DNA of 64,000 nt from contig NZ_CP108054.1 of assembly GCF_036173125.1 (NCBI RefSeq), positions 3,348,001 through 3,412,000 of the forward strand. Direction: 5' to 3'. The stretch is from Streptomyces sp. NBC_00286. GTDB lineage: Bacteria > Actinomycetota > Actinomycetes > Streptomycetales > Streptomycetaceae. How positions within the stretch are numbered: position 1 is the stretch's first letter; each line of letters starts with the position of its first letter. The notes beneath the pieces were generated by a model, which had not been told where the DNA came from, made no database searches, and was given only the letters and a program-made list of their open reading frames with translations. Position numbers and translations under genes: made by a program. Positions 1-7,992 of the stretch are shown piece by piece.

Positions 1-1005
1 GGTGCCCATGAGGAACTCGTTCTTCGGGATCAGCTTGGCGCCGGGGATCGAGACGATCTCGTACTCGTTGATCTCGCGGACGTCGATGATCTCGATCTTC
101 TCGTCGTTGTCGATCCACTCCTTGAGCTGCTTGGGAGTGATCGTCGAGCCGGCGGCCGCCTCCTGGGCCTCCTCGGAGACGACGCCGCAGAAGGCCTCGT
201 AGTCGATGAGCTCGGTGACGGTGGGGTTCTCGCCGCAGACCGCACAATTGGGGTCCTTGCGGACCTTGACCTGGCGGTACTGCATCTCCAGGGCGTCGTA
301 GATCATCAGGCGGCCGACCAGCGGTTCGCCGGTGCCGGTGAGGACCTTGATCGCCTCAGTGACCTGAATGGAGCCGATGGACGCGCACAGCACACCGAGG
401 ACGCCGCCCTCGGCGCAGGAGGGGACCATGCCCGGCGGCGGGGGCTCCGGGTAGAGGCAGCGGTAGCAGGGGCCGTGCTCGGACCAGAAGACGGAGGCCT
501 GGCCGTCGAAGCGGTAGATCGAGCCCCAGACGTACGGCTTGTTGAGGAGCACGCACGCGTCGTTGACCAGGTAGCGGGTCGCGAAGTTGTCGGTGCCGTC
601 GACGATCAGGTCGTACTGGCTGAAGATGTCCATCACGTTCTCGGCCTCGAGCCGCTCTTCGTGAAGGATCACGTTCACGTACGGGTTGATGCCGAGCACG
701 CTGTCGCGGGCCGACTCGGCCTTGGAGCGGCCGATGTCCGCCTGGCTGTGGATGATCTGACGCTGCAGGTTGGACTCGTCGACCTCGTCGAACTCCACGA
801 TGCCGAGCGTGCCGACGCCCGCCGCGGCCAGGTACATGAGGGCCGGCGAGCCCAGGCCGCCGGCGCCAACGGCGAGCACCTTGGCGTTCTTCAGCCGCTT
901 CTGCCCGTCCATCCCCACGTCGGGAATGATCAGGTGGCGGGAGTACCTGCGGACCTCGTCTACGGTGAGCTCAGAAGCGGGCTCGACCAGGGGTGGCAGC
1001 GACAC
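1..1005 (-). CDS. moeZ: MoeZ/MoeB-type adenylyltransferase-sulfurtransferase (3' end cut by window)
   Basis: Activates the C-terminal glycine of small sulfur carriers (MoaD/ThiS type) by adenylation and then transfers sulfur through a rhodanese domain; family knowledge places it in molybdopterin, thiamine and thiocarboxylate biosynthesis in the cytoplasm. The 335 visible codons show the ATP-binding GAGGLGSP motif near residue 48, an LQRQ-IIH stretch, and two CxxC zinc pairs (CYRC, CAVC). A rhodanese domain begins near residue 295 (KQLKEWIDNDEKIEIIDVRE) and is cut off at the left edge, so the active-site cysteine is not seen. The GTG start at 1005 has a GGAG site about 6 nt upstream. It lies 63 bp after the spherulin-like gene on the same strand. 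Confidence 0.93.
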   Translation of the reverse strand, partial: MSLPPLVEPASELTVDEVRRYSRHLIIPDVGMDGQKRLKNAKVLAVGAGGLGSPALMYLAAAGVGTLGIVEFDEVDESNLQRQIIHSQADIGRSKAESARDSVLGINPYVNVILHEERLEAENVMDIFSQYDLIVDGTDNFATRYLVNDACVLLNKPYVWGSIYRFDGQASVFWSEHGPCYRCLYPEPPPPGMVPSCAEGGVLGVLCASIGSIQVTEAIKVLTGTGEPLVGRLMIYDALEMQYRQVKVRKDPNCAVCGENPTVTELIDYEAFCGVVSEEAQEAAAGSTITPKQLKEWIDNDEKIEIIDVREINEYEIVSIPGAKLIPKNEFLMGT

Positions 1006-1068
1006 GGGGACTCCGTTGGTCGGTCAATCACTACGGTTGTTCTTCGCGTAACACTGCCACGCCCCTCT

Positions 1069-1818
1069 TCATTCCGAGACACCCGTTCCGACCCGCGAGA
1101 CGATTTCGTCCCAGTAGCCGGGCATGGTCGCCCAGGGGTCGACCCGGCCGCCGCGATCCGTGCGGTCGGTGAAGTAGATCGTCGAGGCGCCCTGCCAGCG
1201 AGCTATGCGCAGCGCCTCGTCGAGATGCCCGCGGGGCACGCTGTGCACGAAGTGGCAGAAACGCTGGGGCGGGTGGTCGGCGGTCCACTCCGCCACCTGC
1301 GACCAGCGGTATTCGCTCCAGGGCCCGCAGAAGGTCACCAACTGGTCGGCGAACTCGGCATATCCGGGATGCGGGTGGGAGCCGTGCCCGAGGACGATAT
1401 GGCCTTCGCCGAGGAAGGCGCGCAGGGTCGTGGCCGTACGGCTCATCTCGGGGAGCGTTGTCCGGTCCGTGGGACAGCGGTCCAGATAGAAGCCGTCCAC
1501 GCGGTACCAGTCGAGATACCGGTGCGCCTCCGATATCAGCTCACCGAAGGTGCGTGCGCCGTATCTCACATCGAGGTGTCCCAGGACCCGGACGCCCGCG
1601 TTGCGCAGTCGCCCCGCCGCGGCGAGGCAGTGCGGGTCGGGCCGGATGCCGGGACCGTCGGCGACGTTGAGGACGACCCAGTGCAAGGGAGTGCCGGGGC
1701 GGGTGAGTTGGCCCCATTCGAGAGGGGCGACGAGGGGGTGCGCATAGCCGGGGACGCCGAAGCCGAAGCGTATGTCGGTGCTCGCGGTGCCTACCGCGGT
1801 GCGGGTCAGATGCGGCAT
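1069..1818 (-). CDS. Spherulation-specific family 4 (spherulin-4/GH114-like) protein
   Basis: A 249-residue protein matching the spherulin-4 family, a TIM-barrel fold related to GH114 polygalactosaminidases. Family-like features are PLHWVVLNVADGPG early on, RVLGHLDVRYGAR with a YLDWYRVDGFYLDRCP block in the middle (acidic residues in the VDGFYLD strand are likely active-site residues), and QGASTIYFTDR near the end. No signal peptide is visible, unusual for a secreted glycosidase. Its ATG overlaps the end of the epimerase gene by 13 bp, so translation is probably coupled. With the PelF-like gene upstream, a role in trimming or editing an amino-sugar polymer is an inference; enzymatic activity is not shown by the sequence. 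Confidence 0.75.
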   Translation of the reverse strand: MPHLTRTAVGTASTDIRFGFGVPGYAHPLVAPLEWGQLTRPGTPLHWVVLNVADGPGIRPDPHCLAAAGRLRNAGVRVLGHLDVRYGARTFGELISEAHRYLDWYRVDGFYLDRCPTDRTTLPEMSRTATTLRAFLGEGHIVLGHGSHPHPGYAEFADQLVTFCGPWSEYRWSQVAEWTADHPPQRFCHFVHSVPRGHLDEALRIARWQGASTIYFTDRTDRGGRVDPWATMPGYWDEIVSRVGTGVSE

Positions 1819-2765
1819 GCCGCCTCCATCCAGATATCGGCGAGGGACTCTTCGAGGTGGATCCGGGGCCGCCAGCCGAGCCGGTCGCGTGCGGTGCGCA
1901 CATCGGCCTGCTGCCAGCTGCCGCAGCCGTCGGGATAGGGGTAAGCGGCCGGGGCCGTGTGCTCGGATTCGGAGCGGGGGTGGCCGATGGATGGCCTGAC
2001 GATTCCGGGCGGGGCGTCGAGTTCGTGCAGCGCCCCGCCGTAGCCGGCCACGCGCGCGAGGACGGCGGCTGCGTCCCGGAGGCGTACGGCACGTCCGGAG
2101 CCGATGTTGATGACGCCCTGTGCGGCGGAGAGGGAGGCGGCATGGACGGCGCGCGCGACATCGCGTACGTCGATGAAGTCGCGCTGGATGCCGAGTCCGC
2201 CCACCTTCAGTTCGCCGTCGCCGGACTGCATGGCGCGACGCATGGCCTCGGCGAGGCGGCCGAGGGGCGAGCCGGCGGGTGTGCCGGGTCCGGCGGGCGA
2301 GAAGACCCGCAGGACGACGGCGTCCAGGCCGGAGCCCAGGACGAGTTCGGTGCCGGCGAGCTTGCTGACGCCGTACGGGCCGCCGGGGCGCGGCGTCGCG
2401 TCCTCGGCCGTGCAGGAGCCGGGCTGGCTGGGGCCGTACTCCGCGCCGCAGCCGATCTGCACGAGGCGCGCGCCGCAGCCGCTGCGGCGCAGGGCCTCGC
2501 AGACGGTGGCGACGGCGACGGTGTTGTGCCGGGTCAGTTCGCGGGCGCCGCCTCGGGTGGCGCCGGCGCAGTTGATGACGACGCCGGGGTGCACCGCGTC
2601 CAGGAAGCGGGTCAGTGCGCCCGGGCTGCCGCTGGAGAGGTCGAACCGTACATCCGCGTCGTCGCCCCGGCCGAGCGCGGTGAGCTGCACGGCCGGGTCG
2701 GCGAGGAGTCGGTCGGCGACGTACCGGCCCAGAAATCCGTTGGCTCCGATCAGCAGCACCCTCAT
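1806..2765 (-). CDS. NAD-dependent sugar-nucleotide epimerase/dehydratase (extended SDR)
   Basis: A 319-residue extended short-chain dehydrogenase/reductase acting on nucleotide sugars. The N-terminal Rossmann motif is GANGFLG at residues 7-13, an AD-type acidic strand follows (DADVRFDLSS), and the catalytic YGVSK (YxxxK) lies near residue 150. A longer frame reaches 2825, but the ATG at 2765 is preferred: GGGAG lies about 8 nt upstream and the Rossmann strand follows immediately. It is downstream of the membrane protein and PelF-like glycosyltransferase and overlaps the spherulin-like gene. Substrate is not determinable from sequence; a UDP-GlcNAc/GalNAc 4-epimerase role similar to PelX is one hypothesis. 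Confidence 0.85.
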   Translation of the reverse strand: MRVLLIGANGFLGRYVADRLLADPAVQLTALGRGDDADVRFDLSSGSPGALTRFLDAVHPGVVINCAGATRGGARELTRHNTVAVATVCEALRRSGCGARLVQIGCGAEYGPSQPGSCTAEDATPRPGGPYGVSKLAGTELVLGSGLDAVVLRVFSPAGPGTPAGSPLGRLAEAMRRAMQSGDGELKVGGLGIQRDFIDVRDVARAVHAASLSAAQGVINIGSGRAVRLRDAAAVLARVAGYGGALHELDAPPGIVRPSIGHPRSESEHTAPAAYPYPDGCGSWQQADVRTARDRLGWRPRIHLEESLADIWMEAACRI

Positions 2766-2921
2766 CGGGCGGCTCCCGGGGTGGATTCTCCGATACGGAG
2801 GGTGATCATCTTGTGTCTCCTTCAAGGGTGTTGCGATGGTTCGTCAGGGAGGGCCGCGGTGTCGGCCCCGCCGGAGGGCCGGGCTCGGCACGGCGGCCGG
2901 GTGGCGGGCCCGGGGTGTGGT

Positions 2922-4184
2922 TCACGGCGCCCCACCGTCATACGCGTGGGCCGAGGCCCGGGTGAGGGTCCTGGTCGCGTGGACCAGGAGTACGAGCGCC
3001 GCGGCCCCACATACGAGGGCCGGCACGACACCGGGCCCCCATGCGGCGGTCACGGTCTCGATGGGAACGGCGAGGAACGAGCAGCCGGGCAGGCGGCCCG
3101 CGAAGACGCTCGCCACAGCCGTCACCTCGGCCGCACCGGCGGCGGCCAGTACGACGGCCGGGGCGTGCCGGAAGCCGCGCACGGTGAGCAGCCGGGCGAG
3201 CAGCAGGAGCGCGCCGAGGGCGCCGATTCCGGCGTACGCGGCGGGATCGGCGGGCTCGTCCAGCAGGGTCTCGCACAGCACGAGCAGGCCGCCCAGGGCG
3301 CAGAGGAACAGCCCGAACACGCCCAGGAGCAGAGGGCGTACGGAGGCGGCGAACTCCTTGAGAGTTCGGCCGGCGGCCAGTCTGCGCCGGGCGCGCACGG
3401 CGAAGAGGTGGGCGCACCAAGCGGCCGGGGCGCAGGCCAGGGAGAGGGCCGTCACCGACGCGACGGGCAGGGGCCAGGGGCTGTCAGCGTCACCGTTCGG
3501 CCAGCTGTACGGGCCACCCGCGAGGGCGGCGCCGAGCAGACCGTCGCCGAGGAGGGCGTATGCGAGCAGCCAGCACATCCACGCGCACGTGCCCTTTGTC
3601 GTGCGCCCCGCGCGCGGGGCGTGCAGGGGGCCGCGGCCAAGGGCCAGGCGCAGGCACAGGGCGATGGCGAGTACGCCCAGGACGGCGACCGTGACGGCGA
3701 GGTGCAGCCGGGCCTCGGTGAGGCGCAGCCCAGTCACCGCCGCCGCGCATACGGCGCCCGGCAGCAGGGTGAGCACGGCCCAACTGACTTGCGCCTTGGG
3801 GAGGTTGACGGCAGGCGCGCTGGGACTGGTCTCGCCGTCGCGGGGCACGCGCGCGTAGATCTCCTCGGCCAGCGAGAACACGTCACGGTGCCGGAACCGG
3901 GCCACGGTTCGGTCGGTCACCCCGTGCGCCTCCAAACCGGCCGCGATCTCCAGCGGATCCACGGCCCGTTCGCACAGCTCCCGGTGACGGTGCATCAGCG
4001 CCTTCACGGGGTCCACGGCGACCTGGCTGCTGGACTCGTCCGACGAGGCCCGCGCCCCCGGGATATCCGGGGCGCTCAGCGCTCCAGCCGTCACCAGCCA
4101 CTCCTCATCGGAAGCGACCGCATCCCGCACCGCGGCACCGCCCGGCGCCCCCGGCAGGTCCACGTCGCGCTGCCGCCCGCTCAT
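2922..4184 (-). CDS. Polytopic membrane protein coupled to the PelF-like glycosyltransferase
   Basis: A 420-residue protein not assigned to a named family. The first ~130 residues are soluble and probably cytosolic (HRELCERAVDPLEIAAGLEAHG suggests a small helical domain). They are followed by about eight hydrophobic helices, for example VSWAVLTLLPGAVCAAAV, LLAYALLGDGLLGAALAG, LLLGVFGLFLCALGGLLVL and VVPALVCGAAALVLLVHA. The ATG at 4184 overlaps the stop of the upstream glycosyltransferase in an ATGA, so the two are probably co-translated and functionally linked. By position it could be the export or assembly partner of the glycosyltransferase, as PelG is for PelF, but it is shorter than PelG and has no visible PelG similarity. 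Confidence 0.8.
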   Translation of the reverse strand: MSGRQRDVDLPGAPGGAAVRDAVASDEEWLVTAGALSAPDIPGARASSDESSSQVAVDPVKALMHRHRELCERAVDPLEIAAGLEAHGVTDRTVARFRHRDVFSLAEEIYARVPRDGETSPSAPAVNLPKAQVSWAVLTLLPGAVCAAAVTGLRLTEARLHLAVTVAVLGVLAIALCLRLALGRGPLHAPRAGRTTKGTCAWMCWLLAYALLGDGLLGAALAGGPYSWPNGDADSPWPLPVASVTALSLACAPAAWCAHLFAVRARRRLAAGRTLKEFAASVRPLLLGVFGLFLCALGGLLVLCETLLDEPADPAAYAGIGALGALLLLARLLTVRGFRHAPAVVLAAAGAAEVTAVASVFAGRLPGCSFLAVPIETVTAAWGPGVVPALVCGAAALVLLVHATRTLTRASAHAYDGGAP

Positions 4185-6073
4185 CGCGTCCCCTTCCCGG
4201 CGGGAACCGGCTCCTGCGCCGCGCCGGAACCGGCACTCGCCGCCCCGGACCCAGGGCAAGCGCCCGCCGACCCGGATGCCGGCAGAGCGCCCGCCGCCCC
4301 GGACCTCGCCGCAACCCCCGCCGCCCCAGAACCCAGCCGAGCACCCGCAGCCCCGGATCCCGGCAGAGCGCCCGCCGCCCCCGCAACCCCCACGGCCCAC
4401 CGCGGACCGCTCACCGACGCAGGCCGGGTTCCGGACTCGGCCCAGCGAGCCCGCACATGGGCCTCGGCCGGTACCGCGAAGGGCAGCGGTTCATCGGTGG
4501 CGGCTCGGCGGACCGGGCTGTGCGAGACGATCTCCAGGTAAATGCCATGAAACGCCGCGATGTTCTGCTCGACGGTGAACAGTTCGAGGGCACGCGCGCG
4601 TGCCGCCGCGCCGAGGAGTGCACGGCGCTCGGGGTCGCGCAGCAGGGCGACGCACGCCTCGGCGAGCGCCCGCGGATTGCGCGGCGGCACCACCAGACCC
4701 GTACCGCCGATGACCTCCACGACCGCGCCGACGTCCGTGGACACCGTGGCGCGCCCGCAGAACATCGCCTCGACAAGGCCGTTCGGGAAGCCCTCGACGA
4801 CGCTCGACAGCACGACCACGGCCCCGGCCGCGTACGCCTCCGCGAGACTCGGCACCTCCGGCCCGCCGATCTCCTCGAACGACACAGGCGGCACCCGCGA
4901 CCCCGGACGGCCACCGATCTCGCGTACGCCTCCCACCTCATCGGGGAAGAGCCGCGCGGCCAGCATCTTGCAGTCCGCCCGATACGCGGCCCCAGCCGGC
5001 CCCTCGACAGGCGCGCCGATGATCCGCAGCCGCGCCCTCGGCCGTTCCTTGCGGACCGCCGCGAAGGCGTGCAGCAGCGAGACGAGGTCCTTGTCGGGCT
5101 CCATCCGCCCGACCCAGACCAGCGTGTCCGGATCGGCACAGTCCGCTCGTTCGCCCACCTCCCAGAAGGGGGAGGCCTCCATGCCCGGATAGACCGTACG
5201 GAGCTTGGCGCGGTCGGCGCCGCAGCGCTCCTGCCAGCGGCGGGCGTGCGTATTGCCGGGCGTGATGAGGGCGGCCTGCCGGTACATCTCGGCCGCGAGC
5301 CGGCCGTGGAAGGCCGCGAGCAGCGCCCGCACCGGCCCTGACTCCTCGCGCGAGTCCAAGTAGTGCGCCCGCAACCGCACGCCGTACTCCGTGACCAACA
5401 GCGGCACGCCCCAGAAGTGCCGGGCCAGCAGCCCGGGCAGGGCCGCGGCTCCCCCGGACGTGGCGTGGCACAGGTCGACGGAGCCGAGTCCGTCCTGCTC
5501 GCCGTACCAGTCGAGCGACAGGGGGCGCAGGGTGCGCTCGATCCGGTCGGCGACGGTGAGCAGATCCGGGACGCGCGCCCCGCGCGCGGTGCGCAATGCG
5601 CCGGGCGCGCGGCAGGCGCTCTCGAGGGCACGCACAGCGGTTTCGGAACGCAGGGCACTGGTCAGGCCGCCGCCCGCATCCCGGACGAGTTCGGCAAGCC
5701 CGTACAACGCACTGCCGAAACGGTCCGCCACATCCAATGAGCCATCCCCTGAGGCCGATGCAGCGCCCTCCATAACGGCATCCCCCGCACAGACCGCCGC
5801 CGCCAACTCCCCGTAGCACTCGGCGAACCGCCGCCGCGCCCGGCGGCCGTACGCCACGCCGTCATCGCCCGCGGTCCATAACGGCGCCGTGCGCACGCGG
5901 CCCACCTGGGGCGGCAGCTCGACGAAGCCCTCGCCCTGCTGTCGCTCGCTCCTGCTGAGCGCGTAGACGTCGAAGTCGTGCTGCCCGAGCCCGCGTACAA
6001 GCCGGTCGCACCAGAGCCTGGCGTCACCGCTCAGATATGGATAGCCACCCTCCGTAAGCAGTCCGATGCGCAC
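4181..6073 (-). CDS. pelF: PelF-type GT4 glycosyltransferase (DUF3492) with Gly/Ala-rich tail
   Basis: A 630-residue cytosolic glycosyltransferase. The N-terminal region (1-270) matches the DUF3492 part of PelF, starting MRIGLLTEGGYPYLSGD. The GT4 catalytic half (about 300-520) carries LVWVGRMEPDKDLVSLLHAF and the EGFPNGLVEAM nucleotide-sugar signature. PelF polymerises UDP-linked amino sugars in Pel exopolysaccharide synthesis in other bacteria. The GTG start at 6073 gives the expected N-terminus. Residues about 545-630 are an odd low-complexity tail made of GSGAAGALP-like repeats of about 10 residues, absent from typical PelF. It is first in a run of four same-strand genes and overlaps the next by 4 bp. 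Confidence 0.85.
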   Translation of the reverse strand: MRIGLLTEGGYPYLSGDARLWCDRLVRGLGQHDFDVYALSRSERQQGEGFVELPPQVGRVRTAPLWTAGDDGVAYGRRARRRFAECYGELAAAVCAGDAVMEGAASASGDGSLDVADRFGSALYGLAELVRDAGGGLTSALRSETAVRALESACRAPGALRTARGARVPDLLTVADRIERTLRPLSLDWYGEQDGLGSVDLCHATSGGAAALPGLLARHFWGVPLLVTEYGVRLRAHYLDSREESGPVRALLAAFHGRLAAEMYRQAALITPGNTHARRWQERCGADRAKLRTVYPGMEASPFWEVGERADCADPDTLVWVGRMEPDKDLVSLLHAFAAVRKERPRARLRIIGAPVEGPAGAAYRADCKMLAARLFPDEVGGVREIGGRPGSRVPPVSFEEIGGPEVPSLAEAYAAGAVVVLSSVVEGFPNGLVEAMFCGRATVSTDVGAVVEVIGGTGLVVPPRNPRALAEACVALLRDPERRALLGAAARARALELFTVEQNIAAFHGIYLEIVSHSPVRRAATDEPLPFAVPAEAHVRARWAESGTRPASVSGPRWAVGVAGAAGALPGSGAAGARLGSGAAGVAARSGAAGALPASGSAGACPGSGAASAGSGAAQEPVPAGKGTR

Positions 6074-6153
6074 GAGTGCACCCCTGATCTTCCGTATGGG
6101 GAGCCGCCGTTGCCCGGCGACTCACAGCGGGACGAACGTACGCGGACATGACC

Positions 6154-6185
6154 GTGGCGCGATGGACGGTTGTCCATCGCGCCAC
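6154..6185. terminator. 14-bp perfect stem-loop between DUF3152 gene and pelF
   Basis: A perfect 14-bp stem (6154-6167 with 6172-6185) closed by a GGTT tetraloop. It sits 85 bp after the stop of the DUF3152 gene and about 80 bp before the pelF start. It fits a terminator for the DUF3152 gene on the minus strand; there is no clear U tract. A regulatory hairpin in the pelF leader is also possible. Confidence 0.55.
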
Positions 6186-6270
6186 CAAAAGGGGTGAACG
6201 GTCGTAACTTTCCCGTGCGAATCGCGTTTCGTCGCGCTAAGAGATCAATCGCGTACGTGCCGCAAGCGTC

Positions 6271-7992
6271 TCAAGCCCCGGGAAACGGCCAGGGGTTGGC
6301 CCGGCAACGGATTCCGTCGTGCTCGAGGAACTTGCTCTGCTGTTGCATGACGGGCGCGAGTTCGCCGTCCTTGTCGCAGGTCACATGGCCGTAGCCGAGC
6401 CGGTGGCCGATCTCGTGGTTGATCAGCATCTGCCGGTACGCGTACATCTTGTCGCCGTAAGTCTGGGCGCCCTGAGCCCAGCGATACGCGTTGATCATCA
6501 CGCGGTCGGTGGCCGCGGAGTCGCAGGAGACGTTGTCCACGGTGGTGTCCAGGCCCGATTTGGCGCACCAGACCGCCGTGGTGCCGGGGCTGGCCAGCGT
6601 GATGACGAAGTCGGGCTGCCCGGTGGAGACCCGCTCGAAGGTACGGGCCCCGTCGTGGGCCCAACTCCGCTCGTCGTTCAGAGTCTTGTGCACGGCCTGC
6701 GCGAAGAGGGTGCCGTCGAGGCCGAGGCCCTTCTCGACGTCGACGCGGTAGGTGATCTTCTGTCCCGTGCCGGGCGCCTGGTCGACACCGCGGATCGCCT
6801 CGAATTCCCCGCCGCCCTTGAGGTTCGCGGCCAGCGGGTACTTCTTCGCCACCAATTGCGCGTACGACGGCGGAGTCGCGCCCTCCACCTCGGACGGAGG
6901 CGTCGGCCTGGTGTCGCCGCGCGCCGCGGCGTCCTTGGCTTCCCGGTCCGCGCCGCCCACGGTCGGCGGGCGCGCGGAGGTGTCCTCGCGCCCGTCGGTG
7001 ACCACCTGCCCGGCCACGACGACGGCGAGCACGGTGGTGACGGCGGCGGCCGCGACCCCGGTGAAGGTCCAGCCCTTGCCGCCCTTGGCCTTCTCCGGCA
7101 GATACGGCTCCGAGGGCGCATCCGGAAGATAGGGCTCCGAGGGCGCCTTGTGCTCGGTTTCCGCGGGGTCGAGGTACCGGTCGGTGGAGTCGACGGCGGA
7201 GTAGTACGGGTCCGAGCGGAGGGCCTGGTCGCCGGTACGCGACGCGAAGACGTTGTCGTCCCGCTCGAAGGCGTCGACGTAGTCCTGGCGGGGACCCTGC
7301 GCGGGATGCGGCGCCTGCCGCTGCTGCGGTATGGCGGGCCCGGGCCCCTCGGCCTGCGATGCGCCCGGTCTCCCCGGGTACGCCCCCTGAGGCGCGCCGT
7401 ATCCGGGCGCCCCGCTGAACACCCCCCAGCCACCGCCGGATTCCCGCTGCTCGGGATGCGCACCGCGGACTTGGGGGACACCGTGAGCAGGCGTGCCATC
7501 GGGGTACCTCGGAACGCCATGAGCGGGCGTCCCGTCAGGAAGCCGCGGGACGCCATGAGCCGACGTACCGTCAGAGAACCGAGGTACGCCGTGAGCTGGC
7601 GATCCGTCAGGCAACCGCGGAACCCCCTGCGCGGGCGTACCGTCCGGCAGCCGGTGAACCCCATGCGCCGGAGTGCCGTCCGCGTACTGCGGAACGCCAC
7701 GAGCCGGTGTGCCATCCGCATACCGCGGAACTCCGCCCGCAGGCGTCCCGTCAGGGAAGCGCGGAACCCCCTGCGCGTCCGGCCGCGGCACCCACCCATC
7801 AGGCAGCCGAGGTACCCCACCCGCCGGAGTGCCGGGACCGCCGCCCCTCGTCGGTGGCGGCTGCGGCTGGGGTTGCGGCCCAGAGGGAGCCCGGCGGCGT
7901 CCGGTGGCCGGTTCCGGGCGGCTTCCCGCGACCACCGGGGTGTCGGTGGTGTCGCCCTTGCGGGCCGACCCACGTCGGCTGTGACGTCCCAC
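6271..7992 (-). CDS. DUF3152 membrane-anchored protein, metalloprotease-like, with 13-residue repeats
   Basis: A 573-residue protein with three parts. Residues about 55-180 are roughly ten copies of a 13-residue repeat of the type GVPRLPDGTPAHG. One membrane helix follows near residue 310 (FTGVAAAAVTTVLAVVVAGQVV), orienting the C-terminus outside. The C-terminal ~220 residues match DUF3152 and contain INHEIGHRLGYGH, an HExGHxxGxxH motif like that of metzincin zinc proteases, plus cysteines suited to disulfides. Proteolytic activity is inferred from the motif only. The start is GTG 7992. The gene lies 8 bp after the upstream alpha/beta hydrolase on the same strand and may be co-transcribed with it. 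Confidence 0.88.
   Translation of the reverse strand: MGRHSRRGSARKGDTTDTPVVAGSRPEPATGRRRAPSGPQPQPQPPPTRGGGPGTPAGGVPRLPDGWVPRPDAQGVPRFPDGTPAGGVPRYADGTPARGVPQYADGTPAHGVHRLPDGTPAQGVPRLPDGSPAHGVPRFSDGTSAHGVPRLPDGTPAHGVPRYPDGTPAHGVPQVRGAHPEQRESGGGWGVFSGAPGYGAPQGAYPGRPGASQAEGPGPAIPQQRQAPHPAQGPRQDYVDAFERDDNVFASRTGDQALRSDPYYSAVDSTDRYLDPAETEHKAPSEPYLPDAPSEPYLPEKAKGGKGWTFTGVAAAAVTTVLAVVVAGQVVTDGREDTSARPPTVGGADREAKDAAARGDTRPTPPSEVEGATPPSYAQLVAKKYPLAANLKGGGEFEAIRGVDQAPGTGQKITYRVDVEKGLGLDGTLFAQAVHKTLNDERSWAHDGARTFERVSTGQPDFVITLASPGTTAVWCAKSGLDTTVDNVSCDSAATDRVMINAYRWAQGAQTYGDKMYAYRQMLINHEIGHRLGYGHVTCDKDGELAPVMQQQSKFLEHDGIRCRANPWPFPGA

Follow-up and report, generated by a model that had tools for sequence, protein, structure and literature searches.

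Which kind of glycan machinery is encoded by four adjacent genes in Streptomyces sp. NBC_00286, and what could it make? The genes lie on the minus strand, within positions 1069-6073 of a 64,000-nucleotide stretch of DNA (contig NZ_CP108054.1, positions 3,348,001 to 3,412,000), which is called here the window. They encode a glycosyltransferase (GT), a transmembrane protein (TM), a short-chain dehydrogenase/reductase (SDR) and a spherulin-4 family protein (Sph). A preliminary description of this DNA regarded the locus as a reduced, minimal form of the Pel exopolysaccharide system. The four same-strand open reading frames and the ATGA overlap of GT and TM were confirmed. The more general part of that proposal also stands: a DUF3492/PelF-like GT and the membrane protein to which it is coupled, SDR and spherulin-4 partners, and a relationship to systems of the Pel and galactosaminogalactan (GAG) kind. 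The assignment to Pel itself does not, as the PelF cut-off is missed, PelG is lacking, and the closest relatives are CE18/Agd3 operons and not pelDEAFG. Profile and tree comparisons show a common ancestry of GT and TM with the PelF-TM pair in operons of the order Agd3-PelF-TM-Sph4 and place the window locus as a sister of the CE18-type group.

Relationship to CE18/Agd3-type operons

The GT contains a DUF3492 domain (PF11997, E 6.7e-28) together with GT4 domains. Its match to a PelF-specific profile is borderline: a match to the equivalog NF038011 exists (92.8 bits), but it remains under the cut-off of 100. The genome that contains the window has two DUF3492 GTs and two spherulin-4 genes, which are paired at the window locus and at a second locus, L003 (6279-12119 in G000:C1:7645000-7664000). 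L003 encodes an Agd3-like protein, PelF, a TM protein of 508 amino acids and a spherulin-4 protein that retains the expected residues; the last two genes each start in a GTGA overlap, and PelF reaches 163.4 bits against the cut-off of 100. The Agd3-like protein, 679 amino acids long with a hydrophobic start, has no Pfam match at 0.001 and no PDB match. It is 26% identical (E 5e-40) to its relative in locus L112, and a RWINHT..H stretch is common to it and to the L112 and L114 proteins. Because these two relatives match the Pfam families Agd3_CE and CBM87 (1.6e-26 and 8.5e-12 for L112; 2.8e-11 and 3.9e-14 for L114), the L003 protein is predicted to be of CE18 type. By gene content, L003 looks like a CE18-type, GAG-like operon and a bacterial equivalent of the GAG cluster of fungi.

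The fungal cluster consists of uge3, gtb3, sph3, agd3 and ega3 (PMC4817252, PMC8224951). In the survey of bacterial CE18/Agd3 operons by Bamford et al. (2020, PMC7229062), each operon found encodes a multi-spanning membrane protein as well as a cytoplasmic GT, and spherulin-4 is present in some of those from Actinobacteria. The window locus resembles bacterial CE18/Agd3 operons in the PelF-TM-Sph order, the N-terminal domain of TM and the presence of SDR relatives, whereas it differs from them in the lack of Agd3, the lost Sph residues, the Cys of the SDR and the long stem of the GT. Features common to it and the fungal cluster are spherulin-4, an SDR and the joining of GT to a membrane part; it differs from that cluster in having neither a deacetylase nor a GH114 gene.

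The L003-type arrangement was followed in 79 named loci with the L003-type TM family, the best of 472 relatives. The order Agd3-like-PelF-TM-Sph occurs in 67 of them, and 5 more have an SDR before Sph; another 4, located at the start of a contig, are partial, and the last 3, of which two reach a contig edge, are without a Sph match. BLAST was run without composition correction and without the low-complexity filter in this comparison, as well as in those of the CE18-type loci, of 60 window-type loci and of the fusion proteins described below. The window GT is 40% identical to the L003 GT. A GT tree, which gave long-branch warnings, was built from 42 of 147 rows (60 window-type, 78 CE18-linked and 9 others). 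The 19 window-type rows in it fall into a single clade (100/100) with a long stem (1.24), and this clade joins 17 PelF rows of CE18-type loci and L110 at 98/99. The CE18-linked L114 is placed outside that grouping, and PelG-linked PelFs are far off.

An average over 56 rows (4/59 rows were dropped as short or cut) gives 8 hydrophobic segments for the TM protein. This protein has no Pfam or NCBIfam match, and its best solved structure has E 0.15; the profile of the paralog family is likewise without a structural match. The N-terminal domain is the most conserved part (0.80-0.87 versus 0.45-0.69 beyond residue 120), and it connects the two loci of the genome, with 47% identity to the L003 paralog over 59 residues and a profile match to the L003 family of 97.9% (E 3.5e-13, 66 columns). 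A search of the genome with this domain gave the second copy at 2.8e-7 and the next best match at 0.2, which leaves two good TM matches only.

The functional pairing of GT and TM is indicated by natural fusions. A search with the two L003 proteins, GT and TM, in tandem returned 101 proteins, 18 of which exceed 850 amino acids. Sixteen of these match PelF and TM in one chain and are GT-TM fusions; with composition correction off, the same 16 match the window TM at E 6e-16 to 3e-5. The other two match a PelF-type GT only. When the profiles of eight fusions and of the window TM family were compared, the N-terminal domain aligned (97.7%, 85 columns); in the fusions it is placed between GT and the membrane part. 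Because of these fusions and this placement, GT and TM would act as one synthase, with the domain as a docking or linker element. Among PelF-type GTs, P0192, P0193 and P0197 carry FHA domains (PF00498) in the same chain, and P0192 and P0193 are without a TM part.

The remark that the membrane protein is not an obvious PelG holds. TM does not match PF16933, and the L003-type TM family compared with the PelG profile reaches a probability of 0.2%, the alignments being shallow. The search was extended to an order-level sample of 147 genomes, which comprises 132 of the same genus (Streptomyces, as inferred from named relatives of the TM protein and named loci) and 15 that belong to other families in this order; the window's own family is represented by this genus alone. 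Full-length PelG was found in none of the 147 with PF16933. Partial matches occur in 31/147, all at profile positions 321-446, and 12 are over the cut-off; the best score in the window's genome is 21.8 bits against a cut-off of 29, outside the window locus. PelD (PF16963) has zero matches in this genome and zero in 14 controls as well.

The Gram-positive Pel operon is pelDEADAFG (Whitfield et al. 2020, PMC7112168). It is similar to the window locus in that a GT of the DUF3492/PelF kind adjoins a membrane protein and that accessory genes for an epimerase and a hydrolase are present; it differs in that the window locus has no PelG and no deacetylase, and its GT is under the PelF cut-off. Pel membership was rejected on the cut-off, the absence of PelG and the GT tree. 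In another, distant actinobacterial family, the loci L112 (7321-14078) and L113 combine PelF, a true PelG (463.6 bits in L112, 87% identical in L113) and an Agd3-like protein, with spherulin-4 on the opposite strand. As judged from their gene content, they are hybrids of the Pel and GAG gene sets.

The spherulin-4 protein and the dehydrogenase/reductase

Sph is a member of the spherulin-4 family (PF12138, E 1.1e-24; Sph3 structure 5c5g, E 1.7e-5) and is 39% identical to its L003 paralog. It had been called spherulin-4/GH114-like; the first half of this name is correct, whereas GH114 is not supported and the residues expected for hydrolysis are lost. In an alignment to Sph3 (5c5g), from which 1/54 rows was dropped as short or cut, the Glu and Asn of Sph3-like enzymes are replaced by Cys164 and Gly144 in the window protein; Asp is kept, and Arg and Cys take the place of the two Glu of Sph3. 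The acidic positions compared are presumably the catalytic ones of Sph3.

The same losses extend through the window-type proteins. Glu at the VFEAT position is found in 0/53 scorable window-type rows and in 82/82 CE18-linked ones, and Asn at the HNPG position again in 0/53 and 82/82. Asp at the FFDET position is present in 25/53 and 82/82, respectively. Residues at the VFEAT position in 54 window-type rows are S in 30, A in 9, R in 8, C in 4 and Q in 2, with one gap. In the CE18-linked proteins, Gln (80) or Arg (2) takes the place of the second acidic residue of FFDET, and Glu occurs there only in L112, L113 and Sph3. An active GH135 hydrolase was considered and rejected, as the expected residues are lost from the alignment columns. 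The single GH114 gene of the genome (L207, G000:C1:9205206-9205841, 174.7 bits) is located far from both loci.

The SDR, described earlier as an epimerase, matches the Epimerase family (PF01370, E 1.1e-36), but its best structures are GDP-4-keto-6-deoxyhexose reductases. When a profile of the SDR and three cluster relatives was compared with solved structures, GDP-6-deoxy-4-hexulose reductases came first (2pk3, 2e-33; 6x3b, 1.7e-28), and the best 4-epimerase structure was below them at 1.1e-23. The SDR scores 28.3 bits against the GalE equivalog, for which the cut-off is 262.3. A contrary ranking was given by NCBIfam, in which GalE is first for the SDR relatives of L110 and L114, far under the cut-off. 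The Ser/Thr site is Cys in 57/57 rows, and Tyr and Lys are kept in 57/57 (2/58 rows were dropped as short or cut); three cluster relatives have Ser at that site, and one of them has His for Lys. Translation probably begins at ATG 2765, not TTG 2825, because the ortholog alignment begins at MRVLL.

A fuller form of the CE18-type gene set, represented by L107, L109 and L110, has in addition a LegB-like dehydratase, a nucleotidyltransferase and an SDR that has 40-43% identity with the one in the window. The L107 dehydratase scores 443.6 bits against LegB, under the cut-off of 475, and no Agd3-like match was found in L110. Because the nucleotidyltransferase and the dehydratase adjoin the SDR relative, gene context suggests that this relative performs a 4-ketoreductase step. 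The window locus is without such a dehydratase, hence its SDR could be an epimerase or a reductase. The set of PelF, TM and SDR with nucleotidyltransferase and dehydratases, LegB-like or other, is present in L107, L109, L110 and L114, the last of which also has a UDP-sugar dehydrogenase. This gene content hints that the polymer of these loci may contain a 6-deoxy or uronic sugar.

Distribution, gene order and selection

The TM gene was detected in 131/132 same-genus genomes and in 0/15 genomes from other families; the sole genome of the genus without a match is a 580-contig assembly. The SDR is present in 132/132 and 0/15 (E 1e-30). Any Sph match occurs in 126/132, with weak matches in 6/15 others, while window-type Sph, counted by place and identity, occurs in 123/132. 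An Agd3-like (CE18) homolog was found in 65/132 same-genus genomes and 0/15 others, so that about half of the genus sample has no such gene to accompany the window locus.

Gene order was compared in 60 loci, hand-picked among the 130 further genomes that have a TM match. The four-gene order, whose absence elsewhere would have counted against the Pel reading, is clearly conserved: the one-strand arrangement GT-TM-SDR-Sph-moeZ is kept in 54/60; five of the remaining six are without Sph, and one is cut by a contig end. This conservation is more than chance. In L052 and L066, which are among the 54, Sph is a weak or short remnant. The GT stop codon lies within ATGA in 39/60 loci and within GTGA in 17/60, which are raw counts with no background rate. 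Across 246 genomes of the phylum, 16 have DUF3492; 7 of these 16, and no others, have Pfam spherulin-4, with the paired genes within about 6 kb. The hypergeometric value of 1.2e-9 for this co-occurrence ignores kinship, and 5/7 genomes are from the window's genus.

Arg323, Lys328, Glu427 and Glu435 are all present in the window GT, and the corresponding set is complete in 78 CE18-linked and 9 other rows. Among 60 window-type rows (1/60 was dropped as short or cut), all 60 have the second Glu; the first Glu is kept in 56 and replaced by Asp in 4, and Arg is found in 51 and Lys in 49. The segment around Arg and Lys is gone in L081, L082, L084, L087 and L088; other losses may be alignment slips. 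The protein ends in an Ala/Gly/Ser-rich, low-complexity tail (4181-4600, minus) after about residue 520, and the length of this tail varies widely among orthologs.

The ratio of nonsynonymous to synonymous substitutions (dN/dS) was calculated for 13 hand-picked pairs, 5 with broken GT motifs (three share members) and 8 intact. In the broken pairs, it is 0.26-0.36 for GT, 0.32-0.56 for TM, 0.15-0.34 for Sph, 0.01-0.04 for SDR and 0.01-0.10 for MoeZ; the intact pairs give 0.15-0.33, 0.29-0.51, 0.14-0.46, 0.02-0.08 (7 pairs) and 0.05-0.10, in the same order. The SDR is constrained as tightly as MoeZ. Sph is, by these ratios, under purifying selection despite its lost residues.

The features are listed in Table 1. 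The moeZ gene (NF005902, 651.5 bits) lies 63 bases downstream of the four genes, the end of SDR and the start of Sph share 13 bases, and the upstream neighbours of GT are a DUF3152 protein and an alpha/beta hydrolase. Pfam found no deacetylase domain in the four window genes, which have moeZ, DUF3152 and the alpha/beta hydrolase as neighbours, and no Agd3-like deacetylase was found at the window locus. An Rfam scan of the window gave no match, and a promoter and terminator scan of 900-6400 found none.

Table 1. Coordinates of the locus and of one neighbouring gene within the window
Feature	Position	Strand	Description
GT	4181..6073	minus	630 aa; DUF3492 + GT4 glycosyltransferase, PelF-related
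TM	2922..4184	minus	420 aa; membrane partner, ~8 hydrophobic segments, no known family
TM N-terminal domain	3822..4019	minus	about residues 56-121; putative docking role
ATGA overlap, GT stop/TM start	4181..4184	minus	read from sequence
SDR	1806..2765	minus	319 aa counted from ATG; open reading frame open to TTG 2825
Sph	1069..1818	minus	249 aa; spherulin-4 family, without hydrophobic signal segment
DUF3152 protein	6271-7992	minus	PF11350, 2.7e-60; weak zinc metalloprotease family matches

Explanations and biological meaning

There is about an even chance that the locus encodes a GAG-derived GT-TM synthase, a relative of the CE18/Agd3 type, with an SDR for supply and a pseudo-hydrolase as partner. 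GT and TM would form one membrane synthase, in which GT docks through the N-terminal domain of TM and extends a glycan from nucleotide sugar on the cytosolic side. The TM part, in the place that PelG has in Pel, would pass the glycan through the membrane. The SDR would supply or tailor the nucleotide sugar at C4, and Sph, being without a signal segment, may be an intracellular subunit with a glycan-binding or regulatory role, not a hydrolase. Because there is no deacetylase at the locus, the product is proposed to be uncharged, unlike the cationic polymer of Pel and GAG.

Several observations weigh against the GAG-derived synthase. In the profile comparison of the two TM families, no alignment was obtained for the membrane parts, and the SDR has no partner dehydratase at the locus, besides its Cys in the Ser/Thr place. 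Arg is absent from 9/60 GT rows and Lys from 11/60, so that activity may be lost in those species, and Sph is missing from the five loci mentioned above. The CE18 homolog, found in only 65/132 genomes, cannot be a general partner in trans. A possible but doubtful account is that the locus was repurposed from bulk polymer synthesis; GT-TM would modify a lipid or wall polymer or act partly as a scaffold, with the SDR in a wider sugar-nucleotide pathway of its own. It is favoured by the long stem of the window GT clade, by the motif loss in lineages where the GT dN/dS is still 0.26-0.36, by the Sph losses throughout, and by an SDR that is as constrained as MoeZ and is the sole gene found in every same-genus genome; the full motif in most GT rows and the conserved GT-TM coupling and order argue against it. 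A small probability is given to another proposal, in which a GAG-type synthase has turned into a Streptomyces-wide membrane complex that is a sensor or scaffold, with Sph as a cytosolic glycan-binding pseudoenzyme in the examined species, GT deprived of donor-binding residues in several lineages but still under purifying selection, and the SDR (with Cys) as the conserved output.

A minimal Pel system making a polymer rich in N-acetylgalactosamine, with PelF, a substitute for PelG, a PelX-like epimerase and a hydrolase, is unlikely to an even greater degree. The DUF3492 domain, the 92.8-bit PelF match, the spherulin-4 and SDR partners, and the existence of Pel-Agd3-Sph4 hybrids in L112 and L113 would fit it, but the GT is under the PelF cut-off, PelG is represented in the 147 genomes by partial matches only and not at the locus, the Sph residues are lost, the SDR is nearer to reductases among solved structures, and PelG-linked PelFs are distant in the GT tree. 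Least probable of all is a decaying relic in which the SDR alone still matters. Window-type Sph is absent from 9/132 same-genus genomes, TM was not found in 1/132 and GT motifs are broken in some loci, as a relic would predict; however, TM is kept in 131/132, and GT, TM and Sph have dN/dS of 0.14-0.56 in the 13 pairs, including the 5 with broken motifs. The relic was rejected on dN/dS values well below 1 for all genes.

Surface glycans influence hyphal adhesion and aggregation in Streptomyces. Galactosamine-containing wall polysaccharides have been reported in this genus (PMC7229062), and the MatAB poly-N-acetylglucosamine system (PMC5972031) is likewise a Streptomyces surface glycan system. 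No paper on the locus appeared in searches of the listings of an open-licence library. If the sensor or scaffold proposal were true, the genes would serve growth or development by sensing sugar nucleotides or glycans, and would not be a polymer factory. The GAG-derived synthase is the preferred reading. The locus is present in nearly all sampled genomes of the genus and contains, in PelG's place, a membrane family that is fused to the GT in other actinobacteria. It may also be an example of enzymes that drift together toward pseudoenzymes while selection on them persists.

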